From: Nostoc sp. FACHB-280
Lineage (GTDB): Bacteria > Cyanobacteriota > Cyanobacteriia > Cyanobacteriales > Nostocaceae
NCBI RefSeq assembly: GCF_014697615.1
Contig: NZ_JACJSD010000009.1
Location: 1-64,000, forward strand
DNA length: 64,000 bases
Direction of reading: 5' to 3'
Every line of letters begins with the position of its first letter. Within the stretch, counting starts at the first letter, position 1. Position numbers and translations under genes: made by a program. Positions 26,273 through 62,808 of the stretch are shown piece after piece. The notes beneath the pieces are model-generated. The model did no database searches and was not told where the DNA came from. It saw only the letters and a list, made by a program, of their open reading frames with translations.

Positions 26273-26302
26273 AGGTTAAGAAATGCCTAGCAAAAGGTTA
26301 AT
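26273..26302 (-). promoter_or_regulatory. Pho-box-like array upstream of the phytase/GDPD gene
   Basis: Read on the minus strand, three octamers with an exact 11-bp period and TTT spacers occur: ATTAACCT, GCTAGGCA, CTTAACCT. The outer two fit the cyanobacterial PhoB/SphR box (consensus CTTAACCT-like direct repeats separated by 3 bp); the middle one is degenerate. The array ends about 145 bp before the start codon of a phosphoesterase gene, which is the expected regulon. A similar array occurs at 62779-62808. Confidence 0.65.
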
Positions 26303-26407
26303 TAAACTTCCTTGTCTGAACTTTGGAAAAGTCAGCCTGTTTGGGGAGATAAGGGAGACAAAGAAGACAAGGGGGACAAGGTAGACAAAGTAGATTCATA
26401 TCTTGCA

Positions 26408-26625
26408 CCAAACGACTGAAGTCGCGGCTACACAGATAAAACCCGCACTTCGACAAGCTCAGTGACCACATTTCGGCAAGCTCAATGACCGCCTGCGCGG
26501 GTTCCAAACCTTGATTTGATGTTAGTCCGCCTAGCCTGTGGCAACAGCAAAGCTGAACGCGGATTAGTATATGCAAATAGCCTGTGAAGGCAGGCTTTGT
26601 TCTTGTAGCCGCGACTTCTAGTCGT
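26408..26625. repeat. Miniature inverted-repeat element
   Basis: The left end CGACTGAAGTCGCGGCTAC (about 26412-26430) is the reverse complement, apart from one inserted base, of the right end GTAGCCGCGACTTCTAGTCG (about 26607-26626). The interior carries CCCGCACTTCGACAAGCTCA and GCCTGCGCGGG stretches. This looks like a non-coding miniature element. Confidence 0.6.
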
Positions 26626-27165
26626 TCGCGTCTATGTGGTTCGTTATCTAGTCCTATATATAAGTAGTAGACTACCGAAATTAATCGGCGTTCATCCGCG
26701 TCCATCTGCGGTTAATTTTCTTCTTGTCAGTCCAGTAGAGTCACAAATCAATTTCCTGATTGCAGCGATCGCACAACCCCAACAAGGTCTGTGTCAGATA
26801 ATTTTTCTCTTAAAATCGGAATTTGCAGATAAAATTTTACCACAGATTGAGACAAAATCCTGAAAGTATGCTTTAAATATAAAGTTAATCTCTTACAACG
26901 GTTTTGACCTCGACATTGTACCGTTTTTCAGCGTTCAGGGTCAGGCAATGGAGTTTCTTCGGCAAAGATAGCAATTTGCAGCAGAAAAAACAGTTGTCTG
27001 AAGTGATTCAGGTAATGATATTGCATTGTTCGCTGTGGGCAATAAAGGGGGAATCATATTTAGTAATGCTCAATGGCATACTAAACATCCGACTGGCTAT
27101 CGGTAATTAGCACAAAACCCTTGTGTTGAGGGAATTCTAAAAGTTTTGTAATATTGTGGATTCTT

Positions 27166-27801
27166 ATGATTAGCTATCTCAAAGGTCTTGTTGCGGGTGT
27201 TCAGACAATTGGCGGTAATCGCGTCATTTTGACGATCGAAGTCAATGGTATTGGTTATGATTTGCAAGTTCCCCAAAGGTTAGCACAGCAGTTACCAGAA
27301 TCGGGAGGAGTGGTGCAAATTTTCACTCATTACCAAATTCGGGAGGAAGTACCTTTACTGTATGGCTTTGCTTCACCAGCAGAACGGGATTTATTTCGCC
27401 ACTTGCTAACAGTTAGCGGTATTGGTGCAGCTTTGGCGATCGCCCTCCTAGACACCTTGGAATTACCAGATTTAGTCCAAGCCATCATCGCAGGTAACAC
27501 CCAAATCTTAATTCAAGCCCCTGGTGTGGGCAAAAAAACCGCAGAACGCATCTGTTTAGAACTGAAAAGTAAATTGATTGAATGGCGCAAATCAGCCGGG
27601 TTCTTCGTCGCTACAGGCGGCCCAGCACCAGGGATTTTAGAAGAAGTGCAGATGACTTTGTTCGCCTTGGGTTACACAGCCCACGAAGTTAGCCACGCCT
27701 TACACGTTGTGAGTGAAGACATTGGGCTACCCAAAGATGCTTATGTGGAAGATTGGATCAAACAAGCGATCGCCCACCTCAGCAGCGAACAAGTGCAGTA
27801 G
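27166..27801 (+). CDS. ruvA: Holliday junction branch migration subunit RuvA
   Basis: This 211-residue protein tetramerises on Holliday junctions and loads the RuvB motor. The N-terminal OB fold begins MISYLKG and contains GIGYDLQVP. The two helix-hairpin-helix motifs are visible in [19 protein letters not shown] and [19 protein letters not shown], and a C-terminal RuvB-binding segment ([15 protein letters not shown]) follows. The ATG at 27166 starts the conserved N-terminus; a TTG four codons earlier is less likely. ruvB and ruvC are not adjacent, as is usual in cyanobacteria. Confidence 0.95.
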
Positions 27802-27844
27802 AGGCTAGAGACTAGTATTTTTTCTCAGCACTTGCAACTACTGA

Positions 27845-28519
27845 CTAATATTTAATCAAATCTGGTTCAGTCGAAGAATTTAAAAACGTCCACAACTGCA
27901 AATCGGTAAAATCGGGAATTGCCATAAACGCGCCGACTGTTTGCAGATTTTGTGGATCGTGGGTGGAGGCGATACCAATGGTAGGAATCCCAGCCGCAAC
28001 AGCCGCACGAATACCCGAAGGAGAATCTTCCAGGGCGATCGCTTTCTCTGCGTTAATCTTTAATTTGTTTAAAGCCACTTGATAAGGTGTAGGATCAGGT
28101 TTACCTGCGGTGCAATCTTCTGCCAAAATCACTGCATGAAAAGCTTCTTTAATCCCTAAAACCTCAAGCACAAATTCTACATTCAACCGAGGTGCATTGG
28201 TAACTAATGCCCGTTTTAGCTGATGTGTTTCTGTCCAAGCTATGAGTTCAGCAAATCCACTCAACGGTTGCAAATGGGAAGCTAATTCACGAAACAATGC
28301 TTCTTTATCGTCAGCAAATTTCTGCCCTTCTGCTGCTGATAATTGCGGCAAAATATCTTTGACAATTTCTGGATTCAAACGTCCACTAATCCGAGATTGG
28401 TAAAATTTTTCATCTATATCAATGTTGTAGTCTGCCAACATTTGCTGCCAAGCTTGGTAATGTATCGGATCAGTATTGACAATAGTGCCATCCAAGTCAA
28501 AGAGAACTGCTGCCAGCAT
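27845..28519 (-). CDS. HAD-superfamily hydrolase, beta-phosphoglucomutase-like
   Basis: This 224-residue cytosolic enzyme has all four HAD motifs: the Asp nucleophile and acid/base D8 and D10 (LFDLDGT), the Thr of ALVTNAP, the Lys of AGKPDP, and the acidic pair in ALEDSPSG. The four-helix cap after motif I (residues about 15-85) puts it in subfamily IA, with beta-phosphoglucomutases and sugar-phosphate phosphatases. The substrate is probably a small phosphorylated sugar, but is not determined. It is convergent with ruvA. Confidence 0.85.
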   Translation of the reverse strand: MLAAVLFDLDGTIVNTDPIHYQAWQQMLADYNIDIDEKFYQSRISGRLNPEIVKDILPQLSAAEGQKFADDKEALFRELASHLQPLSGFAELIAWTETHQLKRALVTNAPRLNVEFVLEVLGIKEAFHAVILAEDCTAGKPDPTPYQVALNKLKINAEKAIALEDSPSGIRAAVAAGIPTIGIASTHDPQNLQTVGAFMAIPDFTDLQLWTFLNSSTEPDLIKY

Positions 28520-28569
28520 AATTTCTTAAGTGTAAACAAATATTAACTTTATTTACACAGTTTACCTGA

Positions 28570-28763
28570 AAAGTGTGAAGTATGAAAAGAAGAAGTTCAT
28601 ATAATTAAGTAGGGTGACGCACTGCTGAAAGGATGTTTTAACAGTTATCTTGTTGGTAGGTGGTGGCGTGTTAAGGCAAACTTCTACTTTGTGTGACGCT
28701 TAAATCCTCAGATTGCTGTAACACACCCTACTAGACTTCACACTTCACACTTCATACTTCAAA
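28570..28763. repeat. Inverted-repeat element before nagB
   Basis: The spacer between the divergent HAD and nagB genes contains AAGTAGGGTG (about 28605) matching CACCCTACT (about 28724) in inverse orientation. AGTGTGAAGT-type sequence lies at both ends (about 28572 and 28735-28760). This is the layout of a small dispersed intergenic repeat. The right end runs up to the nagB start codon. Confidence 0.5.
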
Positions 28764-29534
28764 ATGGTTGCTGCCAAAAACTTTTTTCGTGTTGATGATT
28801 TACAAGTGCAAGTTTACAATTCTGAAGCAGAAATGGCTGAGGATGTTGCACAGATTACCAACAAATATTTAAAGGATATCTTAGACAAACAGGGTAAAGC
28901 TGCTGTTTTATTAGCAACAGGTAATTCGCAACTCAAATTTCTAGATGCGTTAATTAGGTTGGGTGGTGTAGATTGGTCAAGAATTACTTTATTTCATTTA
29001 GATGAATATTTAGGCATTACGGCTGATCATCCTGCGAGTTTTCGACGTTATCTGCGAGAACGGGTAGAAAATAAACTAACTCCGCAGCAATTTCATTATA
29101 TAGAAGGTGATACATTAGAGCCTGTGGCTGAATGCGATCGCTACACGCAATTACTCCAAGCACAGCCAATCGATTTATGTTGTTTAGGTATTGGCGAAAA
29201 TGGACATTTAGCTTTTAATGATCCTGATGTCGCTAATTTTCATGATCCTTATAGTGTCAAGTTGGTGAAATTAGATATAATCAATCGCCAACAACAAGTA
29301 AATACTGGTCATTTTCCCAATATCGACAGTGTGCCACAATATGCTTTTACTGTCACTCTGCCATTAATTTGTACAACCAAAAAAATTATCTGCCTAGCAC
29401 CAGAAAAACGCAAAGCCCAGATAGTAAAACAGATATTAAAACAAACAATCAGCACCGATTGTCCTGCATCAATTCTCCGTCATCAATCACAGGCAACTTT
29501 ATTTTTAGATGTTAATTCTGCGAGTTTATTGTAG
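28764..29534 (+). CDS. nagB: Glucosamine-6-phosphate deaminase
   Basis: This 256-residue enzyme converts glucosamine-6-phosphate to fructose-6-phosphate and ammonia. The phosphate loop LLATGNSQLKFLDAL, the catalytic FHLDEYLG, and the lid/active-site block LGIGENGHLAFNDP are intact, as is ASFRRYLRER. Length is close to the bacterial NagB norm. A 6-phosphogluconolactonase is less likely because of the LDEY and ENGHLAFNDP pair. No other amino-sugar gene is beside it. Confidence 0.9.
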   Translation: MVAAKNFFRVDDLQVQVYNSEAEMAEDVAQITNKYLKDILDKQGKAAVLLATGNSQLKFLDALIRLGGVDWSRITLFHLDEYLGITADHPASFRRYLRERVENKLTPQQFHYIEGDTLEPVAECDRYTQLLQAQPIDLCCLGIGENGHLAFNDPDVANFHDPYSVKLVKLDIINRQQQVNTGHFPNIDSVPQYAFTVTLPLICTTKKIICLAPEKRKAQIVKQILKQTISTDCPASILRHQSQATLFLDVNSASLL

Positions 29535-29562
29535 TGCTTAGTGAAAGATATGTGTATAGCAA

Positions 29563-29763
29563 TCAACACTTATCTTCTAGCTTAATACTAGATAAACAAG
29601 CCTCAAGATAAGGGCAATCTTCACACTTAATTTCTTCACCTGGATTCGCACAACCACAAGGAGGTGCAATCAAGCATTCGCTTAGTTTTTTAGATTTGGA
29701 AGAGGGTTTTAGTATTATTTCAGTAGCCGCTTCTTGGAGGCAGAAAATTACATCCCGCACCAT
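29563..29763 (-). CDS. Small Cys-rich protein
   Basis: This 66-residue protein is rich in cysteine toward its C-terminus: CLIAPPCGCANPGEEIKCED and then CPYLEAC, ending in KC. The spacing suggests metal or iron-sulphur binding, but no family is recognised. It starts with an ATG, and no alternative frame is better. It is convergent with nagB. I call it a gene because of the organised Cys pattern, with moderate certainty. Confidence 0.6.
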   Translation of the reverse strand: MVRDVIFCLQEAATEIILKPSSKSKKLSECLIAPPCGCANPGEEIKCEDCPYLEACLSSIKLEDKC

Positions 29764-29900
29764 AATATTGAGCCTTTGGTTATCTAGGTAAACTAATTAT
29801 TCATTCGTGATTTAAGTGATGAGTAAAATGTAAAATTAATTGCACTCAACGCACACCGTTTAAATTCCTAATTTCAATCCCTAACTTTATTTATGGGGTT

Positions 29901-30170
29901 TCACTCAGCACTCACACTTCGACGTTGCTCAGTGTAAAGCACTTTCAACTCAGCACTCCTGAACTGATAAGTTTCAGTTGACCATTTTACCCATGCTGAA
30001 ACTTGATCCTCAAAGACAAACTCTCGTCTTTGAGAATTAGCAGTCTCAGCTACTAATACCTTGAGAGTTACGGTTTGCATATTATGATTCATAGTCTGCT
30101 GTCCGTAACCAATCACTTTTCCTAGATGACCTGTTTGTTGATTCAGCACATAATCACCAATGGTGAACAT
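29901..30170 (-). CDS. Small hypothetical protein, SH3-like N-terminus
   Basis: This 89-residue protein begins FTIGDYVLNQQTGHLGKVIGYGQQ, which resembles a small beta-barrel (KOW/SH3-like) opening, followed by a second strand-rich part (VTLKVLVAE, REFVFEDQVSAWVKW). There is no signal peptide or membrane segment. The function is unknown. The downstream end near 29901 abuts sequence with CACTTCGAC repeats. Confidence 0.6.
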   Translation of the reverse strand: MFTIGDYVLNQQTGHLGKVIGYGQQTMNHNMQTVTLKVLVAETANSQRREFVFEDQVSAWVKWSTETYQFRSAELKVLYTEQRRSVSAE

Positions 30171-30303
30171 AGTGACACTTTCAACGTGGATAAGTAGATG
30201 AGTTTTATTTTATTCTCTATAAAAAATTAAATACAAACCTCATGCTTATAGGATGATTTACTTTATCATATTTTCATATATTGTCTAACTAGCGATAGAT
30301 GTC

Positions 30304-30417
30304 ATACCAATTCTATGTGAGTCTGCATTTAATCTTCATATCTCTTCCTTCTTTGTGTTCTTTGCGCCCTTTGTGGTTCGTTCTTTAATTCAGTGCATCT
30401 TCATGCAGAATTGGTAT
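30304..30417. repeat. Miniature element with ATACCAATTCT ends
   Basis: Perfect 11-bp terminal inverted repeats, ATACCAATTCT (30304-30314) and AGAATTGGTAT (30407-30417), enclose a core that reads on the minus strand AACGAACCACAAAGGGCGC. The core is nearly the same as in the elements at 62648-62764 and 57930-58003. A lone AGAATTGGTAT-type end also occurs near 117-128. This fills most of the 365-bp spacer 30171-30535. Confidence 0.75.
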
Positions 30418-30471
30418 CAGACTATTTTAAATTAGTAATTACTTTCTCTAGTTTGGTCTAAATTCTTAACT

Positions 30472-30507
30472 AAAAATAAAACCCGATTTAGGCAGAAAAT
30501 CGGGTTT
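30472..30507 (-). terminator. Intrinsic terminator after the HTH-like gene
   Basis: The stem AAACCCGATTT/AAATCGGGTTT (30479-30489 with 30497-30507) is followed on the minus strand by a TTTTATTTTTA run, about 30 bp after the stop codon at 30536. Confidence 0.85.
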
Positions 30508-30535
30508 GTTGTGCTTTAGTATTAAAGATTGATTT

Positions 30536-30859
30536 TCATCTGTTCAATGCTAACTCTTTTTTTTGTTTCATAATTGATAAATACTCACTACGAGTTCCAT
30601 CTACACGGTAGTGGTCACAGATGCGACAGAGTTTGAGCAAATCCAATCGACTAAATACTTTTTGACGTTCAATTCCGTTATCGTTTCGCCAGCGCCAAAA
30701 AGTTGTACGGTCAATGCGGCGATCGCTCTCAGGCCATCTTCTGCGAGATAAAAAATTTACCAATTCTTCTTCGTAAAACAAGTAGCCTTTTGGTAACTTC
30801 AAGAGTTCTTCTCTTAAATCATTTAGCGGTATGAGTGGATCTAGCTCAGATAGTCTCAT
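30536..30859 (-). CDS. Small protein with a possible helix-turn-helix
   Basis: This 107-residue basic protein has the central segment RIDRTTFWRWRNDNGIERQ. It looks like a helix-turn-helix recognition unit of the kind that reads DNA in MerR-like or phage-like small regulators. The rest is helical (LLKLCRICDHYRVDGTR). It has its own intrinsic terminator, which supports it as a real gene. The family is not recognised. Confidence 0.65.
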   Translation of the reverse strand: MRLSELDPLIPLNDLREELLKLPKGYLFYEEELVNFLSRRRWPESDRRIDRTTFWRWRNDNGIERQKVFSRLDLLKLCRICDHYRVDGTRSEYLSIMKQKKELALNR

Positions 30860-31262
30860 GCCAGCAAGCCCTTATAGTTTCTTGTACATTCAATTACACA
30901 GCACACTTTTGCAACACGGTTTTATCACTTTTTTTGAATTGAAATACTGCAAGATTAAGTCTGAATAGAGAGTAATAAGATAGTAGGATGAACATTATAT
31001 TTATTCTCCCTACTACTTTTTTTACCCGCTTTTCTCAACAAACAGTACAAATTTACGTGATTTAATCAAACACAATAAACTGATTAATACTTAATTGCAA
31101 CCCTCATGCAACAATTTAATATCATGTTCAGCTATTTTCAATAATTATCAAAATCTACTTTTAGATAGATGTACAATTTATATTAGATAAACATAAAAGC
31201 GATCGCCTGATGTTTACTGCCAATGATGCCACTAGTAACACTATAATAGGCGATCGCAAAAC
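30860..31262. other. Spacer with a plus-strand terminator-like hairpin
   Basis: This 403-bp spacer has no gene. TAGTAGG (30981-30987) pairs with CCTACTA (31009-31015) and is followed by seven T residues on the plus strand, although no annotated plus-strand gene precedes it. Near 31199-31258 two HIP1-type arms (GCGATCGCCT and AGGCGATCGC) form an inverted repeat after the lipoprotein gene. Confidence 0.5.
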
Positions 31263-32153
31263 TTACACTACATTTACCCAAAAATCGGCTGTGCTAACTT
31301 TACCATTACGCTGAAATTGCATCCACAGTTTATATGTTCCAGGTTGAGGAAAGTTGGTGACGAATTTTATCTGTCCATCTGGACTATTTTTGTGAGCATG
31401 GGCATGGATATAATCAGCAACTGTCAAGGGTGATGAACTTTTCAAAATCACTAAATGTCCTCTTTCGCCTAAATAAGTCTCTAAACCCTTAATTGGCTGA
31501 TTATTTGCCGTATCTTTGATATCAAAATTTAAGGTAACTTCTTTACCAGCCTGGATATTTTGATTGGCAACATCAAGATTAACTTTAACATTAGATATAA
31601 CTTTAGTTTTTTCAAACTTTTCTAAACTTTTTGGTAAGGGGATTGAACCAGGAATTTTAATTTGCATTAATGACAATGCTTCATTTTGTCCAGATGGTTT
31701 ATAGTCACTAAACAAACTATAGTTACCAGGAGTGGAAAAATTAGCACTCACTTCAAAACGTCCATTACCTTTATAAGTAGGATGAATATGATCATAAGTG
31801 GCTAAATCCTCGCGCACGATAATTAAGTGCATGAGTTTTTCTTGAAAAGTATCAAACTTGTTTATGGATTTACCGTCAGTATCTTGAATATTAATTACTA
31901 AATTAACAGGCTGATTTGGTATCAAATTTTTTGGCGTAGTTAGTTTTGCTTGGGTAGTGATGTTTGTCTTCGCACCATCACTAGTATGTTCCATTGAGTG
32001 ACCCTGATGTTCACTCGACATATTATGCTGATGATCAGTTTGATGTGGTTCACTCCCAGATACCTGCGTTTTGTCAGATTTTTTAACCGATGAGCAACCA
32101 GATACGATTAATAGGCTAGTTAATACGATAATTCCAGTCCAAAAACGCTTCAT
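31263..32153 (-). CDS. His/Met-rich lipoprotein, predicted metal-binding
   Basis: This 296-residue envelope lipoprotein starts with a signal peptide ending in the lipobox SGC (Cys20). Residues about 37-62 form a His/Met-rich stretch (HQTDHQHNM, EHQGHSMEHT) typical of copper or other metal binding. Two beta-sandwich repeats follow. Each has a His-bearing loop (LIIVREDLATYDHIHPTYKG and LVILKSSSPLTVADYIHAHAH) and ends GTYKLWMQF or GNYSLFSDY, which resembles YtkA/FixH-like domains. It is divergent from the ethylene-receptor-like kinase, with an inverted repeat in the spacer. The metal identity is inferred only from the His/Met composition. Confidence 0.8.
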   Translation of the reverse strand: MKRFWTGIIVLTSLLIVSGCSSVKKSDKTQVSGSEPHQTDHQHNMSSEHQGHSMEHTSDGAKTNITTQAKLTTPKNLIPNQPVNLVINIQDTDGKSINKFDTFQEKLMHLIIVREDLATYDHIHPTYKGNGRFEVSANFSTPGNYSLFSDYKPSGQNEALSLMQIKIPGSIPLPKSLEKFEKTKVISNVKVNLDVANQNIQAGKEVTLNFDIKDTANNQPIKGLETYLGERGHLVILKSSSPLTVADYIHAHAHKNSPDGQIKFVTNFPQPGTYKLWMQFQRNGKVSTADFWVNVV

Positions 32154-32484
32154 TTTGCTTTTATTCTCCCATTAAACCTAACATTTCTATGAAAATCTAG
32201 GGTAACTGCTCATAAGATAACTCATCAAGAAAAGAGTTATCAAAAGAAGTTATATTTGTTATACAATATAAACTTATTTCAGAAAATTTACGGTAACAAG
32301 CAACTCGTTTTTGAGATAACTTGATATCAATCAATATTTATTACATAACTTAGTTAAAAAGCTAATTATTATGCAGTATGAAGGATACAAGTACTTGAGG
32401 AGTGTCTGCACACTGAGAAGCAACAAAACTCTTCCACAATCATGACCCTCCAGTAAAAGCTTTGACAATCAATAGGTTTTGAGG
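32154..32484. other. Spacer between divergent lipoprotein and sensor kinase genes
   Basis: This AT-rich spacer has no gene. It contains an inverted repeat at 32216-32241 and a further GATAAC half-site near 32315. Both promoters must lie here. Confidence 0.6.
32216..32241. promoter_or_regulatory. Inverted-repeat operator candidate
   Basis: GATAACTC (32216-32223) and GAGTTATC (32234-32241) form a perfect 8-bp inverted repeat around a 10-bp centre, 63 bp upstream of the lipoprotein start codon. A third half-site (GATAACTT) occurs at 32315-32322 on the kinase side. The regulator is unknown. Confidence 0.45.
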
Positions 32485-34436
32485 ATGGCATTTTTAGATA
32501 ATTTTTTTTTCCTAACCAGTTTATTCCCCACGGACATTGCTATCTGTGGAAACCGGGATTAGTGTGGTTGCACGTTCTTTCCGACTCACTAACTGCAATA
32601 GCTTATTATTCAATTCCATTCATGCTGGTGTATTTCGTCCGCAAACGCAAAGATTTGCCGTTTGACTGGATATTTTTAATGTTTGGTGCATTTATCATTG
32701 CTTGCGGTACAACTCATGTTATGGATGTTTTGACACTTTGGTATCCAACTTACTGGTTATCAGGTTTAATTAAAGCCATCACAGCTTTAATCTCAATCAC
32801 TACATCTGTACAACTTGTACCGTTAATACCTCAAGCACTAGCTTTACCTAGTCATGCACAACTAGAAGCTGCAAACTCTCAACTAGCCACAGAAATTGCT
32901 GAACGCAAACGCACAGAAGAAGTACTCCGAGAAAGTGAAGAACGTTGGCAATTAGCTTTGCGTGGCAATAATGATGGGATTTGGGATTGGAATATTAAAA
33001 CAAATCAAGTATTTTTCTCTTCTCGTTGGAAAGAAATGCTTGGTTATGAAGATGATGAAATTAAAAATCATTTGCAAGAAATTTGGACAAGGATTCACCC
33101 AGATGATTTAGATGCTGTTGTCAAAGCAGTTCAAGAGCATTTTGCGAAAGTGACACCATTTTATGCTAAAGAATTTCGTGTTCTTTGTAAAAATGGGACG
33201 TATAAATGGATATTAGATCGGGGTCAAGCCTTGTGGGATGAAAATGATAATGTAGTCCGTATGGTAGGGTCACATACAGATATTACTGAACGTAAGCAAG
33301 CTGAAGAAACTTTAAGTAGACTACTCACACAACTAGAAATTAAAGTAGCAGAACGCACAGCAGAGTTAACAAGAATTAATCAGTCATTAGAGGCAGAAAT
33401 TACTAAGCGTCAACAGATAGAAACGGCATTAAGAGATAGTGAAGAGCGATTTCGGACGGCATTTCATCAAGCAGCCGTTGGGATTGCTCATGTAGGTTTA
33501 GATGGCAGATGGTTATTAGTCAACCAAAGGCTTTGCGATATTGTTGGTTATACATCAGAGGAATTAGAATTACGTACTTTTCAAGAAATTACTCACCCAG
33601 ATGATTTAAGAGAGTCTTTGAAATGTATTGATGAAATATTGTTAGGCAATATTCAAACATATACAATCGAAAAACGTTATTTTCGTAAAGATGGTGCTGT
33701 CATCTGGATTAACTTTACTGTTTCGTTAACACATCATACTTCAGGAGAGCCAAAGTATTTTATTGCTGTGATTGAAGATATTAGCGATCGCAAACAATCT
33801 CAAGCCCAAATTCAAGCATCATTACTCGAAAAAGAAGTTCTACTCAAAGAAATTTACCATCGAGTCAAAAATAATTTACAAGTCATCTCTAGTTTGCTGA
33901 ATTTGCAATCTGATTATATTAAAGATAAAGAAGATATATACATATTTCAAAAAAGTCAGCAGCGGATTGAATCAATGGCGTTGGTACATGAAAAAATGTA
34001 TCAATCTCCCGACTTGGCTCGCATTGATTTTGGTGAGTATATTCAAGATTTAGTTGCCAGTTTATTTAGCTGTTACGCAATTAATGCAGGGGCAATTTCT
34101 TTACAATTCCATGTTAAATATCAGGTTTTACTCGGTTTAGATTTGGCAATTCCCTGTGGTTTAATTGTGAATGAACTTGTATCTAACTCCTTAAAATACG
34201 GGTTTCCTAATGGTAGAATCGGAGAGATTTGTGTAGGAATTACAGAAGATTTAGACCAGAAATTTACTATTTTTGTTAGTGATAATGGTGTCGGATTACC
34301 ACCTAACTTTAATTTTCAAAATACAGCATCGTTAGGTTGGCAGTTGGTTGAGGCTTTAACTCAACAAATTTCCGGAACAATTAAGATTAACAGTCAGACT
34401 GGTGTAGAATTTCAAATAACATTTCCTTTAACATAA
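32485..34436 (+). CDS. Ethylene-receptor-like PAS histidine kinase, apparent 5' frameshift
   Basis: The main frame (624 residues from the GTG at 32562) has a three-helix membrane domain matching plant ETR1. Relative to ETR1, the residues needed for copper/ethylene binding sit at a constant offset of 17: D8, Y15, I18, P19, I45, C48 and H52. Two PAS domains follow (about 125-250 and 290-410), then a HisKA_2 kinase core with the His of IYHRVKNNLQ near residue 433 and an ATPase with NELVSNSLKYG and DNGVGLPP. Upstream of the GTG the same frame still encodes conserved PHGHCYLWKPGLVW but meets a stop at 32499. The ATG at 32485 (MAFLDNFF) is in another frame and joins only if a nine-T run at 32502-32510 shifts. 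Confidence 0.85.
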
Positions 34437-53880: not shown

Positions 53881-54020
53881 AACCTTGACAAAACACTGTG
53901 GTGAAAATTCGGCAATAAATAAATGATCAACACTGAGGTTAATACTCTTGTGTGCTGCGTTGGCATGAGAAAATCAGATAATACGATCGCAATACAAGCG
54001 ATAAAGTCAAAGGAAGAAAG

Positions 54021-55712
54021 ATGTCGGATAATTTGAGAAGCCGGGTTGTAACACAGGGTGTACAGCGATCGCCAAATCGAGCGATGCTCCGGGCTGTTGG
54101 GTTTGAAGATGCCGATTTTAACAAAGCAATTGTCGGTATTGCCAATGGTTACAGCACTATTACCCCTTGCAATATGGGGATAAACAAATTGGCACAAAGG
54201 GCAGAAGCTGGTATTAAAAGTGCTGGAGCTATGCCGCAAATTTTCGGAACAATTACCATCAGTGATGGCATTTCGATGGGAACAGAGGGGATGAAATATT
54301 CCCTCGTGTCAAGAGAAGTGATTGCCGATTCCATTGAAACTGCTTGTACTGGACAAAGCATGGATGGCGTATTGGCAATTGGTGGTTGTGATAAAAATAT
54401 GCCAGGAGCAATGCTGGCGATCGCGCGGATGAATATTCCCGCGATTTTTGTCTACGGTGGTACAATCAAACCCGGACATTACAACGGTCGTGATTTAACT
54501 GTAGTCAGTTCCTTTGAAGCGGTGGGACAATACAGTGCTGGCAAAATTGACGAAGCTGAACTAACAGCCGTTGAACAAAATGCTTGTCCGGGTGCGGGTT
54601 CCTGTGGCGGGATGTACACAGCTAACACCATGTCTTCGGCATTTGAAGCAATGGGGATGAGTTTACCTTATTCTTCCACAATGGCAGCCGAAGATGCCGA
54701 AAAAGCCGACAGTACGGAAAAATCTGCGTTGGTGTTAGTCGAAGCAATTCGCAAGCAATTATTACCACGCCAAATTATCACCCGTAAATCTATAGAAAAT
54801 GCTATTGCGGTAATTATGGCAGTTGGCGGTTCCACTAATGCAGTATTGCATTTTCTGGCGATCGCCCGCGCGGCTGGTGTGGAATTAACCATCGACGACT
54901 TTGAAACTATCCGTGGTCGAGTACCTGTATTGTGCGATTTAAAACCAAGTGGTAAATACGTCGCTACAGATTTACACAAAGCTGGCGGTATTCCTCAAGT
55001 CATGAAAATGCTGCTGGTACATGATTTGTTGCATGGTGACTGTATTACCATTACTGGTCAAACCATTGCCGAAGTGCTTGCCGATGTGCCGAATGAACCT
55101 AGTCCAGACCAAGATGTGATTCGTCCTTGGGATAAGCCGATGTATGCTCAAGGTCACTTGGCGGTTCTCAAAGGTAATTTGGCTACAGAAGGTGCTGTGG
55201 CGAAAATTACCGGGGTGAAAAAACCAGTCATTACCGGCCCAGCTAGAGTTTTTGAATCAGAAGAATCTTGCTTAGACGCGATTCTGGCAGGCAAAATTAA
55301 AGCTGGTGACGTGATTGTGATTCGTTACGAAGGCCCCAAAGGCGGGCCAGGAATGCGGGAAATGTTGGCTCCTACCTCCGCAATTATTGGTGCTGGCTTG
55401 GGTGATGCTGTCGGATTAATTACCGATGGGCGTTTCTCCGGCGGTACTTATGGGATGGTAGTTGGTCACGTTGCACCAGAAGCAGCTGTGGGTGGAGCGA
55501 TCGCCTTAGTCGAAGAAGGTGATAGCATCACCATTGATGCACCATCACGGCTCTTACAGTTGAATATTTCTGATGAAGAATTAGCCCGCCGCCGTGCTAA
55601 TTGGCAACCCCGCCCACCTCGTTACACTAAAGGCGTATTGGCCAAGTATGCCAAGTTGGTATCTTCCAGCAGCCTTGGTGCAGTGACAGACTTAGGTTTG
55701 TTTGATAGTTAA
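54021..55712 (+). CDS. ilvD: Dihydroxy-acid dehydratase IlvD
   Basis: This 563-residue iron-sulphur enzyme dehydrates 2,3-dihydroxy acids in valine, leucine and isoleucine synthesis. The cluster cysteines are in [19 protein letters not shown] and [16 protein letters not shown], and the substrate-site blocks [10 protein letters not shown] and [15 protein letters not shown] are intact. The N-terminus [25 protein letters not shown] is typical. It is divergent from modA and shares the palindrome-bearing spacer. Confidence 0.97.
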
Positions 55713-55713
55713 T

Positions 55714-55835
55714 CAACCGCAGATAGACGCAGATCAAATAATCTCTGCGTCTCTGCAAGACTAGATGAATGTACCTGATTGGGATGAAAAACGCTGTAAG
55801 AGTTCGAGAGAGTTCTTACATAAATCTTAGGATTT
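55714..55835. repeat. Repeat remnant between ilvD and dus
   Basis: AACCGCAGATAGACGC and TAAGAGTTCGAGAGAGTTCTTA (around 55798-55820, broken by substitutions) resemble the core and right part of the miniature element at 62648-62764. This looks like a degraded copy. Confidence 0.45.
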
Positions 55836-55856
55836 TCAGCAAGCCCTACTTAATAT

Positions 55857-56885
55857 ATGTTCCAGGTATCGCTTCCCCAATCCCTCCACTCAGATTTACC
55901 TCTCACTGCCCTTGCACCTATGCAAGATGTGACAAATCTCAAGTTTATGAAGGTCATTGCTCATTACGGCAACCCTGACTACTTCTTCACTGAATATTTT
56001 CGCGTCAATGAAACATCTCGGCTGAATCCCAAGATTCTGGCATCTATTACAGAAAATGATACTGGTCGCCCTGTTTTTGCTCAAATGATTGGCGAAAGCA
56101 TTCCTGATTTAGTCCGAACAGCAAAGGAACTCTGTGGTTACAATATCGCTGGAGTTGACTTAAACATGGGTTGTCCCGCACCGAGAATCTACCGTAAACA
56201 AGCTGGAGGTGGATTACTACTGGTGCCAGAAAAAGTAGATCGCATTTTGGCGGAACTCAGACAAGCAGTTAATGACCGACCTTTAAGTGTCAAAATGCGC
56301 TTGGGCTTTGAAAATAGCGATACTTTTTTCCAAATTCTCGATATCATCAATCGCCACAGCATTGATTTGTTGAGTTTACATGGTCGCACGGTAAAAGATA
56401 GATACCAAGGCAGGGTAAATTACGCTTTGATTGCCCAAGCGGTTAGACACGTCAATTGTCCCGTCTTGGCTAACGGAAATATATACTCGGCAGCACAAGC
56501 AATCTCGGTACTTGAGCAAACAGGTGCGGTTGGTGTGATGGTAGGCCGTTGGGCAATTGGTAATCCCTGGATTTTTCATCAAATTCGCCAAGCATTGCGC
56601 TCTGAGCCAATTACGCCTGTTCCTTTAACAGAAGTACGCCACTACATTGACCTTTTATACCAAACTCCAGAAGCACCCAATATTCCAGAAAGAGCGCGTG
56701 TCGGCTACCTCAAACTATTTCTCAACTACATTGCTCTCAGTGTTGACAGCCAAGGTAATTTCCTGCGACTAATGCGACAAGCGCAGACCGAAGTTGAACT
56801 TTTTCAGATATGCGATCGCTTTTTGTTAGCTGACCCTGCACAGACTTTAGCCTTAGCTCCTTTAATAACCAGAGACTTAACCTGA
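55857..56885 (+). CDS. tRNA-dihydrouridine synthase
   Basis: This 342-residue FMN enzyme reduces uridine in the D-loop of tRNA. TALAPMQDVTNLKF begins the TIM barrel, the catalytic Cys lies in VDLNMGCPAP, and RKQAGGGLLL, SVKMRLG, LLSLHGRTVKDRYQG and CPVLANGNIYS complete the family motifs. The start ATG at 55857 gives a normal length. It belongs to the Dus family (bacterial DusA/B/C branch not resolved by eye). Confidence 0.93.
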   Translation: MFQVSLPQSLHSDLPLTALAPMQDVTNLKFMKVIAHYGNPDYFFTEYFRVNETSRLNPKILASITENDTGRPVFAQMIGESIPDLVRTAKELCGYNIAGVDLNMGCPAPRIYRKQAGGGLLLVPEKVDRILAELRQAVNDRPLSVKMRLGFENSDTFFQILDIINRHSIDLLSLHGRTVKDRYQGRVNYALIAQAVRHVNCPVLANGNIYSAAQAISVLEQTGAVGVMVGRWAIGNPWIFHQIRQALRSEPITPVPLTEVRHYIDLLYQTPEAPNIPERARVGYLKLFLNYIALSVDSQGNFLRLMRQAQTEVELFQICDRFLLADPAQTLALAPLITRDLT

Positions 56886-56992
56886 CTGTTCAAGATAGGA
56901 ATTAGGAAATTGTATTTGAGGAGCTTAAACGGTGGAAACCTTCTGGCGACAAGAAACGGTCGAATCTAAAACATACATTACTCCTAATACAA

Positions 56993-57098
56993 TTTCACTT
57001 TAAAAATGATACGGATATGCAAGTAGCGCCTCGACTTCGCTCGGCGACCAGAAGCAGAGTTGCAGAGGAAGCGATTTCTGTCAGTAATTTCGTGAAAT
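56993..57098. repeat. Dispersed repeat family B, copy 2
   Basis: This matches 34508-34594 at both ends (TTTCACTTTAAAAATGATAC; CAGTAATTTCGTGAA), with a longer middle that includes CCTCGACTTCGCTCGGCGA, a sequence that looks like an additional insertion. Confidence 0.75.
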
Positions 57099-57122
57099 GG
57101 TATAACTCATTACTCATCACTT

Positions 57123-57932
57123 TTAAGTGGCAGTTGTCTTGCGAATGGTAGCAGCAGTAATACGATCAACCAATCCTGGCACAATTAGCTTTGCCCAAGG
57201 CAGTATCTTACCCTTCAAAGTCATGATATGTTCTCGTTTACGGCGCTCCATTGCCCAGATAATTTGACGCACACACTCTTCCACCGACATATTGCCTTGG
57301 CTTTCATCACGCGGACTTTTACCTAATGGTTTTCCATCTGCGCCCAAGGCTCGTTGGCGAATATCTGTGGCGACAAAACCCGGCGAAATAACCACTACAT
57401 CTACTCCTGTTTGGTGCAGTTCCATCCGCAATGTGTCAAAGAAACCTTGCATAGCATGTTTACTAGCAACGTAACCTGTACGAGTGGGTACACCTGTTTT
57501 GCCGCAAATTGAAGAAATTGCCACCAATAGTCCTCGACTGGCTTTCAGGTAGGGCAGGGCATAATGAGTACAGTAGACCGCACCCAGATAGTTAACCTGC
57601 ATTACCCGTTCAAAAATTGAAAGATCAGTCACTTCATCAAAGCAAGTCAGCATTCCAATGCCGGCATTGTTGATTAAGATATCAATCTTTCCAAACTTAG
57701 CGATCGCTTTTTCCATCAACTGCTGACAAGCTTCTGGTTGAGTGACATCTGTCGGGACTGCAATCACCTCCGCAGGATAATTTGTACAAGCACTCAGCGT
57801 TTGTTCTAATCCTTCTTGATTGCGAGCAGCCAAAACTAAATTTGCACCCTGCTGGGCTAACGAAATTGCCAGCGTTCGGCCAATTCCAGCCGATGCACCC
57901 GTGAGAACAATGGTTTTGTTAGCAAATATCAC
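57123..57932 (-). CDS. Short-chain dehydrogenase/reductase
   Basis: This 269-residue classical SDR has the cofactor motif TGASAGIG near the start, NNAG at about 90 and the catalytic Ser, Tyr and Lys in ISSICGKTGVPTRTGYVASKHA. The Arg in LAARN after strand 2 suggests NADP(H). A C-terminal hydrophobic stretch (ILPWAKLIVPGLVDRI) suggests membrane association or a lipid substrate. It starts with GTG at 57932, right at the edge of a dispersed repeat, so the start region may be altered. The substrate is unknown. Confidence 0.88.
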   Translation of the reverse strand: MIFANKTIVLTGASAGIGRTLAISLAQQGANLVLAARNQEGLEQTLSACTNYPAEVIAVPTDVTQPEACQQLMEKAIAKFGKIDILINNAGIGMLTCFDEVTDLSIFERVMQVNYLGAVYCTHYALPYLKASRGLLVAISSICGKTGVPTRTGYVASKHAMQGFFDTLRMELHQTGVDVVVISPGFVATDIRQRALGADGKPLGKSPRDESQGNMSVEECVRQIIWAMERRKREHIMTLKGKILPWAKLIVPGLVDRITAATIRKTTAT

Positions 57933-58003
57933 TTTGTGTCCTTTGCGCCCTTTGCGGTTTAATAACTACTCACACAGAATTAATTAATTTTTGCGTAAGT
58001 CCT
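57930..58003. repeat. Copy of the AGGACTTACGCAA miniature element
   Basis: The right end TTGCGTAAGTCCT (57991-58003) is identical to that of the element at 62648-62764. On the minus strand AACCGCAAAGGGCGC lies further in, as in the other copies. The left terminus is not intact. Confidence 0.7.
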
Positions 58004-58115
58004 GTACTAAGATTTTTACTCAGTACTCAGCGAGAAGTTGCGTGCGCGGGTTCCCCGCGTTGAGCAAACTTCGGTGACTTTCAAGCTAGGAGTATACCTT
58101 CACAATCTTGCATCC

Positions 58116-59498
58116 TTATGTGTTTTCTTGAGGAATCATAATCGTAAATGTCGTACCTGTACCTACTTGACTTTCTACGATAATTTCTCCTTGATGTAGC
58201 TCTACACATTTTTTGACAACTGCTAACCCTAATCCTGTTCCAGCAATATTTTCAACATTTTGGCATCGGTAAAAAGGCTGATATATTTTATGTTGCTCTG
58301 CTAATGGAATACCAATTCCTTGATCAATAACTTGAAAAGTGATCAGTTCCGCTTCACATTTTAATATTAAATAAATTGCGGTTGCATTATTTGAATATTT
58401 AATGGCATTTAATAACAAATTACTGAGAATAGAATACAAAAGCTTCTCATCAATATTAGCTTTAAAAATAGAACCAATTTTTTGAAATCTGATCATATTT
58501 GCTTTTGTAGCAAAAAGCTGTAAATCTTCTACTAAATTCAAACAAAAATTTTCTAAATTTATTACTTGTAATTTAAAATCTAACTGTCCTGCTTCGGCTC
58601 GCGTTAAAATTAATATATCCGTTAATATATGATTCATGATTTTAGCAGAAGATTGAATACGAAAAATATTCTTTAAATGCTGTTCATCTACTAAATTTTC
58701 GAGACTTTCATTTAATAACTGTGATGAAAGTAAAATTATACTTAAGGGTGTCCGAAATTCATGAGAAATCATAGAAAATAATTGAATCTTTAAATCACCT
58801 ATTTTCTTTTCTTGAGCTAAAGAAAATTCTAAGTCTCTAATTCGCTCACGTTTAATCCATTGCTTTTCCAGAATTATACATAAACCAAGAATTATGATTA
58901 AAATTAAAAATGTTGTAAAAATTTCTATAAAAACTCGGAAATAAATACTTTGTTTTGATTGCTCTAATGAATCTTGGAGATGAGTTTGTTCTTCTGCTTT
59001 AATTTCTGCAATGACCTGTAAGATTTTTTCGCGAATCTGAACACTACTAACAGTAATATTATTTTGTACCGAAAATGCTTTTTCATCTTTTTGGTAAAGT
59101 TCTATAGATTGCTCTAACAGAGATAATCTCTGATTGACTAATAAATTTAAACTGACCAATCGTTTTTCTTGACTACCAGACTCATGTATTTGTTTTTGTA
59201 ATATTTGCAGTTGAGAGCGCATATCTGCCGTTGCATGATAATAACGCTGCAAATCTTGACTACTACCTAAAAAAATATATCCTCGTCTAGCTGATTCTGC
59301 GGCGGTCATTGCGCCATAGAAATTTGTCAAAGCATTGAGAGTTTGATATGTCTGCTGCACCCTGTTAGCTCCAGATTTGATTTCATCTGTGTTCTTTAAC
59401 GAAACAAAACAGATAATTACCATCAGCAACAGAGTTAAACCAAAACCTCCCATAATCCATTTTCCGGGGAAAGTCCATTTGATCAATTGCTGAGTCAT
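58116..59498 (-). CDS. CHASE3 membrane histidine kinase
   Basis: This 460-residue sensor has an N-terminal membrane helix (IMGGFGLTLLLMVIICFVSL), an extracytoplasmic CHASE3-like helical domain (about 35-180; MTAAESARRGYIFLGS and LVNQRLSLLEQSIELY), a second membrane helix (IFTTFLILIIILGLCIIL), a short linker, then a HisKA domain (His of MISHEFRTPLS near residue 246) and an ATPase with NLLLNAIKYS, DQGIGIP and GTGLGLAVV. It is divergent from an OmpR-type regulator gene across 86 bp and probably forms a two-component pair with it. The ligand is unknown. Confidence 0.92.
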   Translation of the reverse strand: MTQQLIKWTFPGKWIMGGFGLTLLLMVIICFVSLKNTDEIKSGANRVQQTYQTLNALTNFYGAMTAAESARRGYIFLGSSQDLQRYYHATADMRSQLQILQKQIHESGSQEKRLVSLNLLVNQRLSLLEQSIELYQKDEKAFSVQNNITVSSVQIREKILQVIAEIKAEEQTHLQDSLEQSKQSIYFRVFIEIFTTFLILIIILGLCIILEKQWIKRERIRDLEFSLAQEKKIGDLKIQLFSMISHEFRTPLSIILLSSQLLNESLENLVDEQHLKNIFRIQSSAKIMNHILTDILILTRAEAGQLDFKLQVINLENFCLNLVEDLQLFATKANMIRFQKIGSIFKANIDEKLLYSILSNLLLNAIKYSNNATAIYLILKCEAELITFQVIDQGIGIPLAEQHKIYQPFYRCQNVENIAGTGLGLAVVKKCVELHQGEIIVESQVGTGTTFTIMIPQENT

Positions 59499-59584
59499 AA
59501 ATTGAGTTAAACAATATTTACTTATACATGATAAATTTAAGGCATTGCTGATATATTTGCCTGTTACTCAATAAAAGATCAAAT

Positions 59585-60277
59585 ATGCGGATTTTAGTAG
59601 TTGAAGATGATATTCAACTCGCAGAAGTACTAGCAGAAGCACTCAACAGACGGCAATATGTGGTGGATATTGCTAAAGATGGAGAAGCAGCTTGGAACTC
59701 TACACAATCTATGAAATATGATTTGATAGTTCTGGATATAACCTTGCCTAAGCTAGATGGAATTAAGTTTTGTCACCAGTTACGAACTGTCGGCATCAAC
59801 AATGCTGCACATCGTAATGCGACTATACCAGTGTTAATGTTAACAGCCCGTGACACCGTAGCTGACAAGATTGCTGGGTTAGATGCTGGCGCAGATGATT
59901 ATGTAGCCAAACCATTTGATTTAGAAGAGTTAATGGCTAGAATTCGTGCATTACTTAGACGAGGTACTTCCAGCAGCACAATGAGTCTGTTATGGGAAAA
60001 ATTGTACCTAAATCCTAGCACCTATGAAGCTACTTATGATGGCTATCCCCTATCATTAACTCTCAAAGAATATGCAATTTTAGAATTACTGGTGGCTCAT
60101 GGTAGACGAGTACTAAGTCGTTCTAGCATTATTGAACAAGTTTGGTCAGTTGATGAATCTCCTGTTGAAGAAACAATCAGATCCCATATTCGGTGCATTC
60201 GACAAAAGCTGAAGGCGTTAGGTGCAGCAGAAAACTTCATTGAAACTGTTCATGGACTAGGATATCGCTTGAAATAG
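59585..60277 (+). CDS. OmpR-family response regulator
   Basis: This 230-residue regulator has a receiver domain (1-120) with phospho-acceptor D51 (DLIVLDITLPKLDG), the acidic pair D8/D9, Thr in MLTARD and Lys in YVAKPFD. The winged-helix output domain ends with RSHIRCIRQKLKALGAAENFIETVHGLGYRLK. It pairs by position with the divergent CHASE3 kinase. Three tandem 11-bp direct repeats, a typical OmpR-family binding layout, lie about 50 bp after its stop codon. Confidence 0.92.
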   Translation: MRILVVEDDIQLAEVLAEALNRRQYVVDIAKDGEAAWNSTQSMKYDLIVLDITLPKLDGIKFCHQLRTVGINNAAHRNATIPVLMLTARDTVADKIAGLDAGADDYVAKPFDLEELMARIRALLRRGTSSSTMSLLWEKLYLNPSTYEATYDGYPLSLTLKEYAILELLVAHGRRVLSRSSIIEQVWSVDESPVEETIRSHIRCIRQKLKALGAAENFIETVHGLGYRLK

Positions 60278-60919
60278 TCATCATGATACTCATCTCATTA
60301 GCAGCGTTGAAAATTTAGTCAGGATTCTCTACACGAAATATACACAACCTCTACACGAGGATTGCACATCAATATAATATTATGATGTTTGACCTTAAAA
60401 AGATAAATATCAAATTTAATCTTTAAGTATTGTATTTGATGTTTAATTGCCTCTATTTAATCATTTATCAGGGTTCATAAAATTTACGTGATTTGGAGTC
60501 ATTAAATAAAACTGAGTTGACTAAGCTTATGAATAAATGTGACCGTGGCAGTGGTAGATATTACAATCTGATTTTAATTAATGAGATTTGTTCATTTATT
60601 ACTTTCTGTAATTTTTAAATAAGCTAATAAAAACCTCTATTTTCTCTGTAAAAATAATTACCACTGTCCTGTAAGTTTGCTGTTGTTATAGATTTTAATT
60701 GGCAAATTTAATACAGGAAGAAGGTAGGTTAGCTTGCAAAGATAAAGGTTTAGCATTGCCTTGAGGTTTTTATTATTTTTGTGTTTTCCCTTATTTTTAA
60801 AAGTAAAATCCGAGATTAATTCTGTGTTTTACAAGGACTGTGGCTGACGTAAATAGATAGAGTCAGTTTTGTGCATATTTTATAACTGCACATACTTGGT
60901 TGTTTGTTAAATAGTCCTA
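60278..60919. other. Spacer between response regulator and haem peroxidase genes
   Basis: This 642-bp AT-rich spacer has no gene. It contains the 11-bp direct repeat array at 60328-60360. Nothing else is clear before the peroxidase start. Confidence 0.6.
60328..60360 (+). promoter_or_regulatory. Three 11-bp direct repeats, OmpR-type operator candidate
   Basis: The units TCTACACGAAA, TATACACAACC and TCTACACGAGG follow each other with no gap. Direct repeats with an 11-bp period are the usual target form of OmpR-family regulators, and such a regulator gene ends just upstream. The downstream gene is the haem peroxidase, whose start is about 560 bp away. Confidence 0.55.
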
Positions 60920-62512
60920 ATGAAAATTATGAATAGCCCAAAAGTTAAAGGCTCAAAAGATAAAGCACTCTTGAAAAAGAAAATCCTTTCTGTGTTAGCG
61001 ATCGCTATTACTGCTATTTTTTCTATCGGTGTGATCGTGGGTGGTTTTCTTGACCGAGAAGTGAAAGCACAGTCTGTTGATGCAACTCTACCCAGTAGAT
61101 TCGGCCGGATGTTTCGTAATCTACCACCCTTTGCACCACCCAGCCCAATTGTTAAAAATGCTCTGATGGAAATGGGTAAACCAGGGGGTATCTTAGATGC
61201 TAAAGACAATTTAGCCGCAGGGCCAATAGCCCTGATCACTGATCCTACTCTCAACGTTAACAATCCCAACAACCCCACCCATACAGCTGGTACAACCTTT
61301 ATGTCCCAGTTTTTGGATCTTGACATTACCTTTGATACGACATCTCGACTAGGCCAAGTAACACCTCCAGTCTCCGCCACAAACTCTCGAACCGCAGCCT
61401 TTGACCTTGATAATATCTACGGTTCTGGGCCGATAGGTTCGCCAAATCTCTACGACCCTAAAGATCCAATTAAGCTGAAACTTGAAAGTGGCGGCTTGTT
61501 TGAGGATTTACCGAGAGACGCAAACAATCGAGCGATTATTGCCGACCCACGCGGCGATCAGCATCTTATTATCAGTGGATTGGTAACTGCGTTCTATAGC
61601 TTCCACAACCATCTGGTGGATTTGGTTAGATCCCAGTCTCCTAATACCTCGAACGATGATGTTTTTCGTCAGGCTCGTCAATTGACCACATGGCACTACC
61701 AATGGACAATCCTCCATGAATTTTTGCCCCTGGTAGTTGGTCAAGATATGGTAAATGACATATTAAAAAATGGGCGTAAATTTTATAATCCCTTGCCAAA
61801 TAGAGGATTTATCCCGGTTGAGTTTCAAATTGGTTATCGTATCGGTCACAGTATGATCCGGCCTTCCTACCGAGCTAACTTAGCTGGAGACAATGGCAAG
61901 CCATTCTTTGCATTCATTTTTGATCCTTCTCAAGAGGGAAAACCTGATCCAGATGACCTCCGTGGTCGAGCAAGAGCAGCACGACGCTTTATTGGCTGGC
62001 AGACATTTTTCGACTTTGGAGATAATCAAGTCAGACCGAATAAATTAATCGATACGAAAATTTCTAGCCCACTGTTTAACTTGCCACTTCAGACTATTGG
62101 TTCAGGTACTCCTCCGACTTCACTTATCCAACGTAACCTGCTCCGACACCTGACTTGGTTACTACCATCTGGTCAAAGCATTGCCCAGAGGATGGGTGTA
62201 CCTGTACTCAGTAAGTACGACTTGGCAGAACTGCGGAGTATTTACCCTACCTTCGATACTTCCACACCGCTTTGGTACTACATCCTCAAAGAAGCTGAAC
62301 TGAAAGAAAAAGGCTTGCATCTAGGCCAAGTTGGCGGTCGGATTGTTGGTGAGGTAATTATCGGTCTGCTTCAGGTTGACCCAAATTCTTATCTCAATGT
62401 AAATCCGTCTTGGGTGCCGACTTTACCCACTAAAACTGGTAAACCTCAAGATTTTCGGATGACTGATTTCTTAACTTTTGCTGGGGTAGATCCGGTTAGT
62501 CGTGGTCAGTGA
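60920..62512 (+). CDS. Animal-type haem peroxidase family protein, distal His missing
   Basis: This 530-residue protein starts with a basic region and one hydrophobic segment (VLAIAITAIFSIGVIVGGFL) ending near KAQ, so it is exported or membrane-anchored. Family landmarks are visible: catalytic Arg211 (ADPRGDQHL), helix FYSFHNHLVDL, and proximal His310 (IGYRIGHSMIRPSYR). The distal block that normally reads QF-x-D-H-D is QFLDLDITFD, with Gln130, Asp133 and Leu134 where the distal His is expected. Peroxidase chemistry is therefore doubtful. A strong intrinsic terminator follows. Confidence 0.88.
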   Translation: MKIMNSPKVKGSKDKALLKKKILSVLAIAITAIFSIGVIVGGFLDREVKAQSVDATLPSRFGRMFRNLPPFAPPSPIVKNALMEMGKPGGILDAKDNLAAGPIALITDPTLNVNNPNNPTHTAGTTFMSQFLDLDITFDTTSRLGQVTPPVSATNSRTAAFDLDNIYGSGPIGSPNLYDPKDPIKLKLESGGLFEDLPRDANNRAIIADPRGDQHLIISGLVTAFYSFHNHLVDLVRSQSPNTSNDDVFRQARQLTTWHYQWTILHEFLPLVVGQDMVNDILKNGRKFYNPLPNRGFIPVEFQIGYRIGHSMIRPSYRANLAGDNGKPFFAFIFDPSQEGKPDPDDLRGRARAARRFIGWQTFFDFGDNQVRPNKLIDTKISSPLFNLPLQTIGSGTPPTSLIQRNLLRHLTWLLPSGQSIAQRMGVPVLSKYDLAELRSIYPTFDTSTPLWYYILKEAELKEKGLHLGQVGGRIVGEVIIGLLQVDPNSYLNVNPSWVPTLPTKTGKPQDFRMTDFLTFAGVDPVSRGQ

Positions 62513-62600
62513 TGTTATTGTCGGACTTTTCATAAGTTTGGTTTATTTCCACCGACCTAACTACAACTGAGCAGCTTGATAAAATATCCAAACAGTAAAG

Positions 62601-62640
62601 AAAGCAGGTGAGCATAACTCACTTGCTTTTTGCTTTTTTA
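62601..62640 (+). terminator. Intrinsic terminator of the haem peroxidase gene
   Basis: The 12-bp stem AAAGCAGGTGAG (62601-62612) with CTCACTTGCTTT (62618-62629), including one G-T pair and a 5-nt loop, runs into TTTTTGCTTTTTT. Confidence 0.9.
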
Positions 62641-62647
62641 TAAAAAT

Positions 62648-62764
62648 AGGACTTACGCAAAAGTATGAAAAAACGAACCGCAAAGGACGCATAGACACGA
62701 AGTGGCTTCCCGAAGGGTAGGACACAAAGTTATAAGAGTTTGAGAGAGTTATTGCGTAAGTCCT
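62648..62764. mobile_element. Complete 117-bp miniature inverted-repeat element
   Basis: Perfect 13-bp terminal inverted repeats, AGGACTTACGCAA (62648-62660) and TTGCGTAAGTCCT (62752-62764), enclose a non-coding core with AACGAACCGCAAAGGACGC. Related pieces occur at 4317, 30304-30417, 55714-55835 and 57930-58003. There is no obvious target-site duplication and no transposase. It sits directly before the Pho-box-like array of the next gene. Confidence 0.85.
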
Positions 62765-62778
62765 GAAATATTCTCTAA

Positions 62779-62808
62779 ATTTACCTGTTCCTAGTATTTC
62801 CTTAACCT
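62779..62808 (+). promoter_or_regulatory. Pho-box-like array upstream of the Calx-beta gene
   Basis: Three octamers with an exact 11-bp period occur: ATTTACCT, CCTAGTAT and CTTAACCT, with GTT and TTC spacers. The last is a perfect cyanobacterial Pho-box unit. The layout, including a degenerate middle unit with CTAG at the same place, copies the array upstream of the phytase/GDPD gene. It ends about 205 bp before the start codon at 63013. Confidence 0.6.

Follow-up and report, generated by a model that had tools for sequence, protein, structure and literature searches.

The window, a 64,000-nt stretch of the Nostoc sp. FACHB-280 genome, contains two large genes on opposite strands, each preceded by a Pho-box-like array of three octamers and a probable -10 box:

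19046..26128, minus strand: target 1, 2360 aa, with Phytase-like, Phytase, GDPD, Calx-beta and DUF4114 domains
26302-26273, minus strand: Pho-box-like array 1, ATTAACCT-TTT-GCTAGGCA-TTT-CTTAACCT
26302-26295, 26291-26284 and 26280-26273, minus strand: unit 1, middle unit and unit 3 of array 1
26259..26264, minus strand: probable -10 box of array 1, TAGCGT, 16 nt past the first base of unit 3
62779-62808, plus strand: Pho-box-like array 2, ATTTACCT-GTT-CCTAGTAT-TTC-CTTAACCT
62817..62822, plus strand: probable -10 box of array 2, TAAATT, 16 nt past the first base of unit 3
63013..63999, plus strand: target 2, 5′ part, an ExeM/NucH-like extracellular nuclease of 1320 aa overall

The phytase and GDPD domains bear out the description of target 1, in an earlier note on this DNA, as a clear phosphoesterase. 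Target 2 runs past the window end to contig base 66975, and its product combines Calx-beta, endonuclease/exonuclease/phosphatase and cadherin-like domains with RTX (calcium-binding) repeats. It matches the ExeM/NucH model NF033681 over positions 1-509 of 546 (E 1.1e-57) at 196.2 bits, below the curated cut-off of 300, and is a relative of ExeM/NucH rather than a full member; the suggestion that this Calx-beta gene may encode a nuclease agrees with the match. Judged by such features, both products are likely secreted phosphoesterases, probably exported by a type I system. The closest named relatives in target-gene comparisons are in Nostoc, with 90-96% identity in the best segment.

Both arrays are intergenic, ahead of the target genes and outside any coding sequence, with 144 bases between array 1 and the GTG at 26128 and 204 bases between array 2 and the ATG at 63013. 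They have the top two three-unit scores of the window, each matching 18 of 24 letters where the next best array matches 16. Their coordinates, exact 11-bp period and outer units were all confirmed, and reading of the sequence places CTAG at one shared offset in both middle units, as the earlier note had stated. The arrays show the spacing of the SphR Pho box (three 8-bp units, 3-bp linkers, 11-bp period), lie in putative promoter regions of phosphate-acquisition genes and are followed by a probable TAnnnT -10 box at the same 16-nt distance from the start of unit 3. Compared with the cyanobacterial consensus YTTAAYYW (PMC13226834, also for Suzuki 2004), unit 3 of both arrays fits, whereas unit 1 is one letter off in array 1 (ATTAACCT) and two off in array 2 (ATTTACCT), and TTAA is absent from both middle units. 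The proposed match to the published three-unit SphR box appears sound in spacing and in the near-consensus outer units. The two middle units agree with CTTAACCT at only 3 and 4 of 8 letters.

We compared these arrays with chance expectation. A lenient outer-unit score gives three matches in the window, compared with an average of 0.85 among 300 first-order Markov sequences, and the outer units alone are unremarkable, because 65 of the 300 hold two or more such matches. An outer-unit match with a CTA middle occurred in 5 of the 300 sequences; the window has two. Within the 7.64-Mb genome, the CTAG pattern with up to two mismatches recovers only arrays 1 and 2 (0 and 1 mismatches, respectively), array 1 being the sole exact match. 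This pattern was derived from the two arrays, so that independent support has to come from conservation in relatives. Looser scans of the same genome, used for best matches only, gave no excess for the CTAG pattern with three mismatches (10 against 17 in the reversed control) and did not separate the signal for the outer pair with one mismatch (6 against 5) or for an adjacent unit pair with two mismatches (20 against 26). The enrichment scan that the earlier note had proposed succeeds in relatives' genomes; confined to this genome, loose scans gave no excess over their controls.

The same genome holds further Pho boxes. Canonical tandem units lie upstream of three of its nine PBP_like_2 (PstS-type) genes, for example TTTAATCT aga ATTTACCT ctt ATTAAACT on contig C24, and a PhoX gene on C48 is preceded by TTTTACCT att CTTAACCT, with its start 70 bp upstream. 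A TIGR02154 search for SphR returned 154 matches in this genome, none above the cut-off, a point against reading the arrays as SphR operators; the match at C48:109812 is no more than an SphR candidate, lying near a PhoX gene that has a box itself. A single further exact TTAACCT-N15-TTAACCT pair is present in the genome (L001, G000:C70:112338-112366). It precedes a gene for a 190-aa PEP-CTERM protein, which faces a second PhoX gene in convergent orientation, and the sequence of this array is also found in four other genomes of the genus.

Conservation was followed at orthologous loci. An array lies within 900 bp upstream of the phytase-GDPD orthologue at four of ten loci (L008, L009, L014 and L018), with GCTAGGCA or GCTAGACC as the middle unit and outer units that vary. 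When the scan was widened to L008-L020 (13 of the 79 fetched loci), a GCTAG array was found at ten of them, namely L008-L015, L017 and L018: immediately ahead of the phytase-GDPD gene at L008, L009, L011, L014 and L018, and 4.6-6.8 kb before it, heading a neighbouring gene, at the other five. L016 is cut by a contig end and has no array, and at L019 and L020, which belong to more distant cyanobacteria, the centres are different. The nucH-type array (TTTACCT...CCTAGTAT...TTAACCT) is present in 7 of 11 genus genomes, our own included, and is near-identical in six of the ten others; a NucH protein is encoded within 1.5 kb in four of these six, not at L140 and L149.

To cover the family, 145 Nostocaceae genomes were surveyed with TTAACCT-N15-TTAAYCT, leaving the middle free. 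Matches were found in 100 genomes, about 174 in total by hand sum against about 50 for the reversed control. In principle the arrays could be repeats of an A+T-rich motif that arose by chance and regulate nothing, as the 65 Markov sequences with two or more outer-unit matches and the failure of loose genome-wide scans to exceed their controls might suggest, but the excess over the control in the family, the orthologous conservation and the association with particular genes make this highly improbable. Among the 150 matches listed, the middle is CTAG at the window offset in at least 25, GTAC in at least 25, TTAA in at least 11 and CTAT in at least 3; the 25 with CTAG comprise 23 counted by script and two, both in G128, counted by eye, five rows lying outside the script count. 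At least eight of the 150 matches listed have CTAG at a different offset, all at one other place. The notion that every Pho array of the family has a CTAG centre was ruled out, since GTAC and TTAA are also among the matches listed.

The CTA-centred arrays were then examined for the genes behind them. We fetched 19 of the 25 CTAG and one of the three CTAT arrays, giving 20 from 19 other genomes, and in 19 of the 20 the next gene is BLAST-similar to target 1 or 2 and starts 115-495 bp from the array start. At L180, L187 and L196 the similarity to the window targets is C-terminal only, and these genes carry or match 5′-nucleotidase; at L189 the array is followed by a 154-aa frame and then a GDPD gene. 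Domains behind the scanned CTA-centred examples are endonuclease/exonuclease/phosphatase, phytase, GDPD and 5′-nucleotidase. The remaining six of the 25 listed CTAG matches belong to our own genus and all stand ahead of phytase-GDPD relatives. In contrast, a set of 20 non-CTAG matches is mixed, with six choice-of-anchor I proteins, one alkaline phosphatase (L215) and ten matches that have no frame of at least 80 aa starting within 300 bp.

Other array classes recur in the survey. The choice-of-anchor I arrays, from several genera (L204 assigned by domain, the other five, L205-L208 and L217, from the start peptide alone), carry one more TTTTACCT unit on the upstream side, and have a degenerate centre and mostly a GATA-containing -10 region. 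The GTAC middle marks a second recurrent class, CTTAACCT TTC TGTACCTT GAC CTTAATCT, which was read at three loci:

L198 (G000:C87), 446-486: GTAC-class array
L199: GTAC-class array
L200: GTAC-class array

None of the three has a frame of at least 80 aa starting within 300 bp downstream, and an Rfam search of these loci gave no match. A 417-aa opposite-strand frame ends about 150 bases beyond the array at L200, and the sequence downstream of the array looks conserved by eye at L198 and L200. The GTAC arrays are possible promoters of a phosphate-regulated small RNA or antisense transcript. A further recurrent insert between outer units, (G/C)CTAGA(T/A)AT, shifts CTAG three bases downstream relative to the window class (G110:C97, G187:C21, G021:C7, G158:C1 and G140:C272); no gene lies close downstream at L209 and L210.

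Promoters were also selected by gene rather than by box. The N-terminal 70 aa of the EEP-phytase and of the 5′-nucleotidase and the first 99 aa of our own PstS served as queries, matching 89 of 145, 48 of 145 and 56 of 60 genomes, respectively. For the 30 loci returned per query, 700 bp upstream was scanned by scoring the outer units only. Arrays over threshold were found at 15 EEP-phytase, 13 5′-nucleotidase and 23 pstS loci, and the centre is CTA(G/T) in 15 of 15, 10 of 13 and 0 of 23 of them. The phosphoesterase arrays pooled give CTA(G/T) at bases 2-5 of unit 2 in 25 of 28, a count in which the G138 promoter belongs to both sets and near-identical rows from sister species (L228, L229 and L231) are included. 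Counting against the SphR-operator reading, 15 of the 30 EEP-phytase and 17 of the 30 5′-nucleotidase loci lack any over-threshold array in those 700 bp. When all three units were scored instead, CTA(G/T) was present in 23 of 30 phosphoesterase arrays versus 0 of 28 at pstS; the outer-only scan is the fairer contrast, because scoring the middle unit favours TTAA at pstS. The array at L230 was rejected (20 to 19), being 1398 bp off and resembling coding sequence, and the L259 array falls under the unit threshold in a later scan.

The class alignment retains 36 promoters of 44 distinct rows, the eight without TA at the -10 place having been dropped; two of the retained rows, with ATTTTTCT and ATTTATTT centres, look like noise. 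The middle GCTA columns, which played no part in selection, hold 1.33, 1.39, 2.00 and 1.69 bits in these 36 promoters, and the four columns that follow hold 0.50-0.94 bits. The class -10 box is TAnnTT and lies 16 nt downstream of the first base of unit 3; its TA was the filter, and its TT columns, which were not filtered on, hold 1.14 and 1.82 bits. The idea that the CTAG-bearing middle may be a real variant of the box is thus upheld by comparison of sequences, with CTA(G/T) kept across Nostocaceae phosphoesterase promoters and absent from the pstS promoters examined. On this evidence, the odd middle unit is conserved in many relatives and is not a decayed copy, and the variant (G/C)CTA(G/T)nnn in place of nTTAAnnn is typical of the promoters of predicted secreted phosphoesterases in Nostocaceae.

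A conserved centre could be something other than a Pho half-site. The outer units would then be a real Pho box and CTAG a different site, either recognised by another regulator or acting through DNA shape or methylation, giving the promoter two inputs. CTA(G/T) is indeed kept while neighbouring bases vary, the low agreement of the window's middle units with CTTAACCT fits such a site, and many copies extend to the 6-bp palindrome GCTAGC. The palindrome is not universal, however (GCTAGG, GCTAGA, CCTAGC and GCTATC occur), and the unit holds the 11-bp register with a half-site-like YTA core. A TAG-type unit, CATAGTCT, also stands in the Synechocystis phoA-nucH box, in a strain with three known SphR sites (PMC1906773). 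We consider a second input quite unlikely.

The range of the class bears on its history. Beyond Nostocaceae, the exact CTA(G/T) pattern occurs in one of 262 genomes of other families (among 291 searched), where it lies ahead of a phytase-GDPD relative with 48% identity. At L266 (G049), L265 (G128) and L264 (G138), short frames lie between a CTAG array and a different gene, and they match the first 31-51 residues of 5′-nucleotidase. These frames are probably 5′-nucleotidase remnants, left where the promoter was kept and the gene behind it exchanged. Many of the arrays would accordingly be one inherited promoter, and their conservation probably does not represent independent events. Both the remnant frames and the near-confinement to one family are what would be expected if CTAG were an inherited accident, that is, if one ancestral phosphoesterase-cluster promoter had spread in Nostocaceae with a middle not yet changed. 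Against this, GCTA is kept where the flanks, the spacers and the final three bases of the unit all vary. The nucH array has different flanks and alternates in the way seen in the other class, with CTAG in the genus but CTAT in Anabaena. An accident of descent therefore seems unlikely.

We favour the reading that both arrays are SphR (PhoB-type) operators at the -35 place with a conserved variant as the middle unit, and regard it as very probable from the sequence comparisons. The arrays would take the place of a -35 element, unit 3 starting 16 nt ahead of the TAnnnT -10 box. Under low phosphate, phosphorylated SphR would occupy the tandem repeats of 11-bp period and bring RNA polymerase to the genes for the large, presumably secreted phosphoesterases, which would make these genes phosphate-inducible in this strain. 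In Synechocystis, electrophoretic mobility shift assays showed PhoB binding to be weakened or lost when any one of the three TTAA cores was mutated (2024, PMC11126600), and a CTAG centre could therefore be expected to bind poorly. The simplest function would thus be that of a weaker site, at which more phosphorylated SphR or cooperativity would be needed. Such a weak centre may set a higher threshold, so that costly exoenzymes would come on later than transporters. More tentatively, and with rather less than even confidence, we suggest that the CTA(G/T) half-site is under selection and defines a distinct Nostocaceae class of Pho operator, that secreted-phosphoesterase genes respond unlike pst genes, and that the operator is kept as genes behind it are exchanged. 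If so, one regulator would stage uptake first and exoenzymes later, through a different phosphate level or cooperativity. A change that costs PhoB much of its binding in vitro in Synechocystis is yet conserved in one promoter class of Nostocaceae, and the CTA(G/T) arrays offer a natural series in which half-site quality can be set against the order of phosphate-starvation genes. The CTA(G/T) centre may also serve as a marker for secreted phosphoesterase genes, many of which encode giant multi-domain proteins.

The window arrays share with the SphR/PhoB box its tandem 8-mers, 3-bp linkers, YTTAAYYW-like outer units and position ahead of phosphate genes, either at -35 or further upstream; they differ in a middle unit that is CTA(G/T) rather than TTAA, conserved in one promoter class. 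The gene nucH (alr0276) is up under phosphorus starvation in Nostoc PCC 7118 (PMC7564538) and a GDPD-phytase gene has been described in Nodularia (PMC3610870). Table 1 of Su 2007 (PMC1906773) lists the box TTTTACCTtctCCTATTATtctCTTAATCT at -178 of nucH alr0276 in Anabaena PCC 7120 and a copy at -174 in A. variabilis. These boxes, the nearest published copies, precede the same kind of gene, agree with the window arrays in linker lengths and closely in outer units, and have CCTAnTAT in the middle; CTAT there in place of CTAG counts against the favoured reading. The nucH half is consequently not new, because an array of such form was predicted for Anabaena in 2007. CTAT is the middle in 2 of the 30 rows of that table, both of them nucH, and the abstract and Results of Su 2007 make no comment on the middle unit. 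Among open-access main texts, searched with terms other than CTAG itself, we found no report of CTA(G/T) as a conserved, phosphoesterase-specific central unit. The novel part is the centre, read from these alignments as a conserved, class-specific variant. The phoA-nucH box of Synechocystis PCC 6803 in the same table, CTTAACCTtttCATAGTCTaacCATAAGTT, resembles the window arrays in its strong first unit, its weak TAG-type second unit and the phosphatase and nuclease behind it, but its third unit is degenerate too, four boxes are reported and the lineage is another. Complex Pho operators of Streptomyces contain unequal repeat units for which PhoP has differing affinities (PMC4415409); they are like the window arrays in that units are unequally conserved, and differ in consensus, regulator (PhoP) and phylum.
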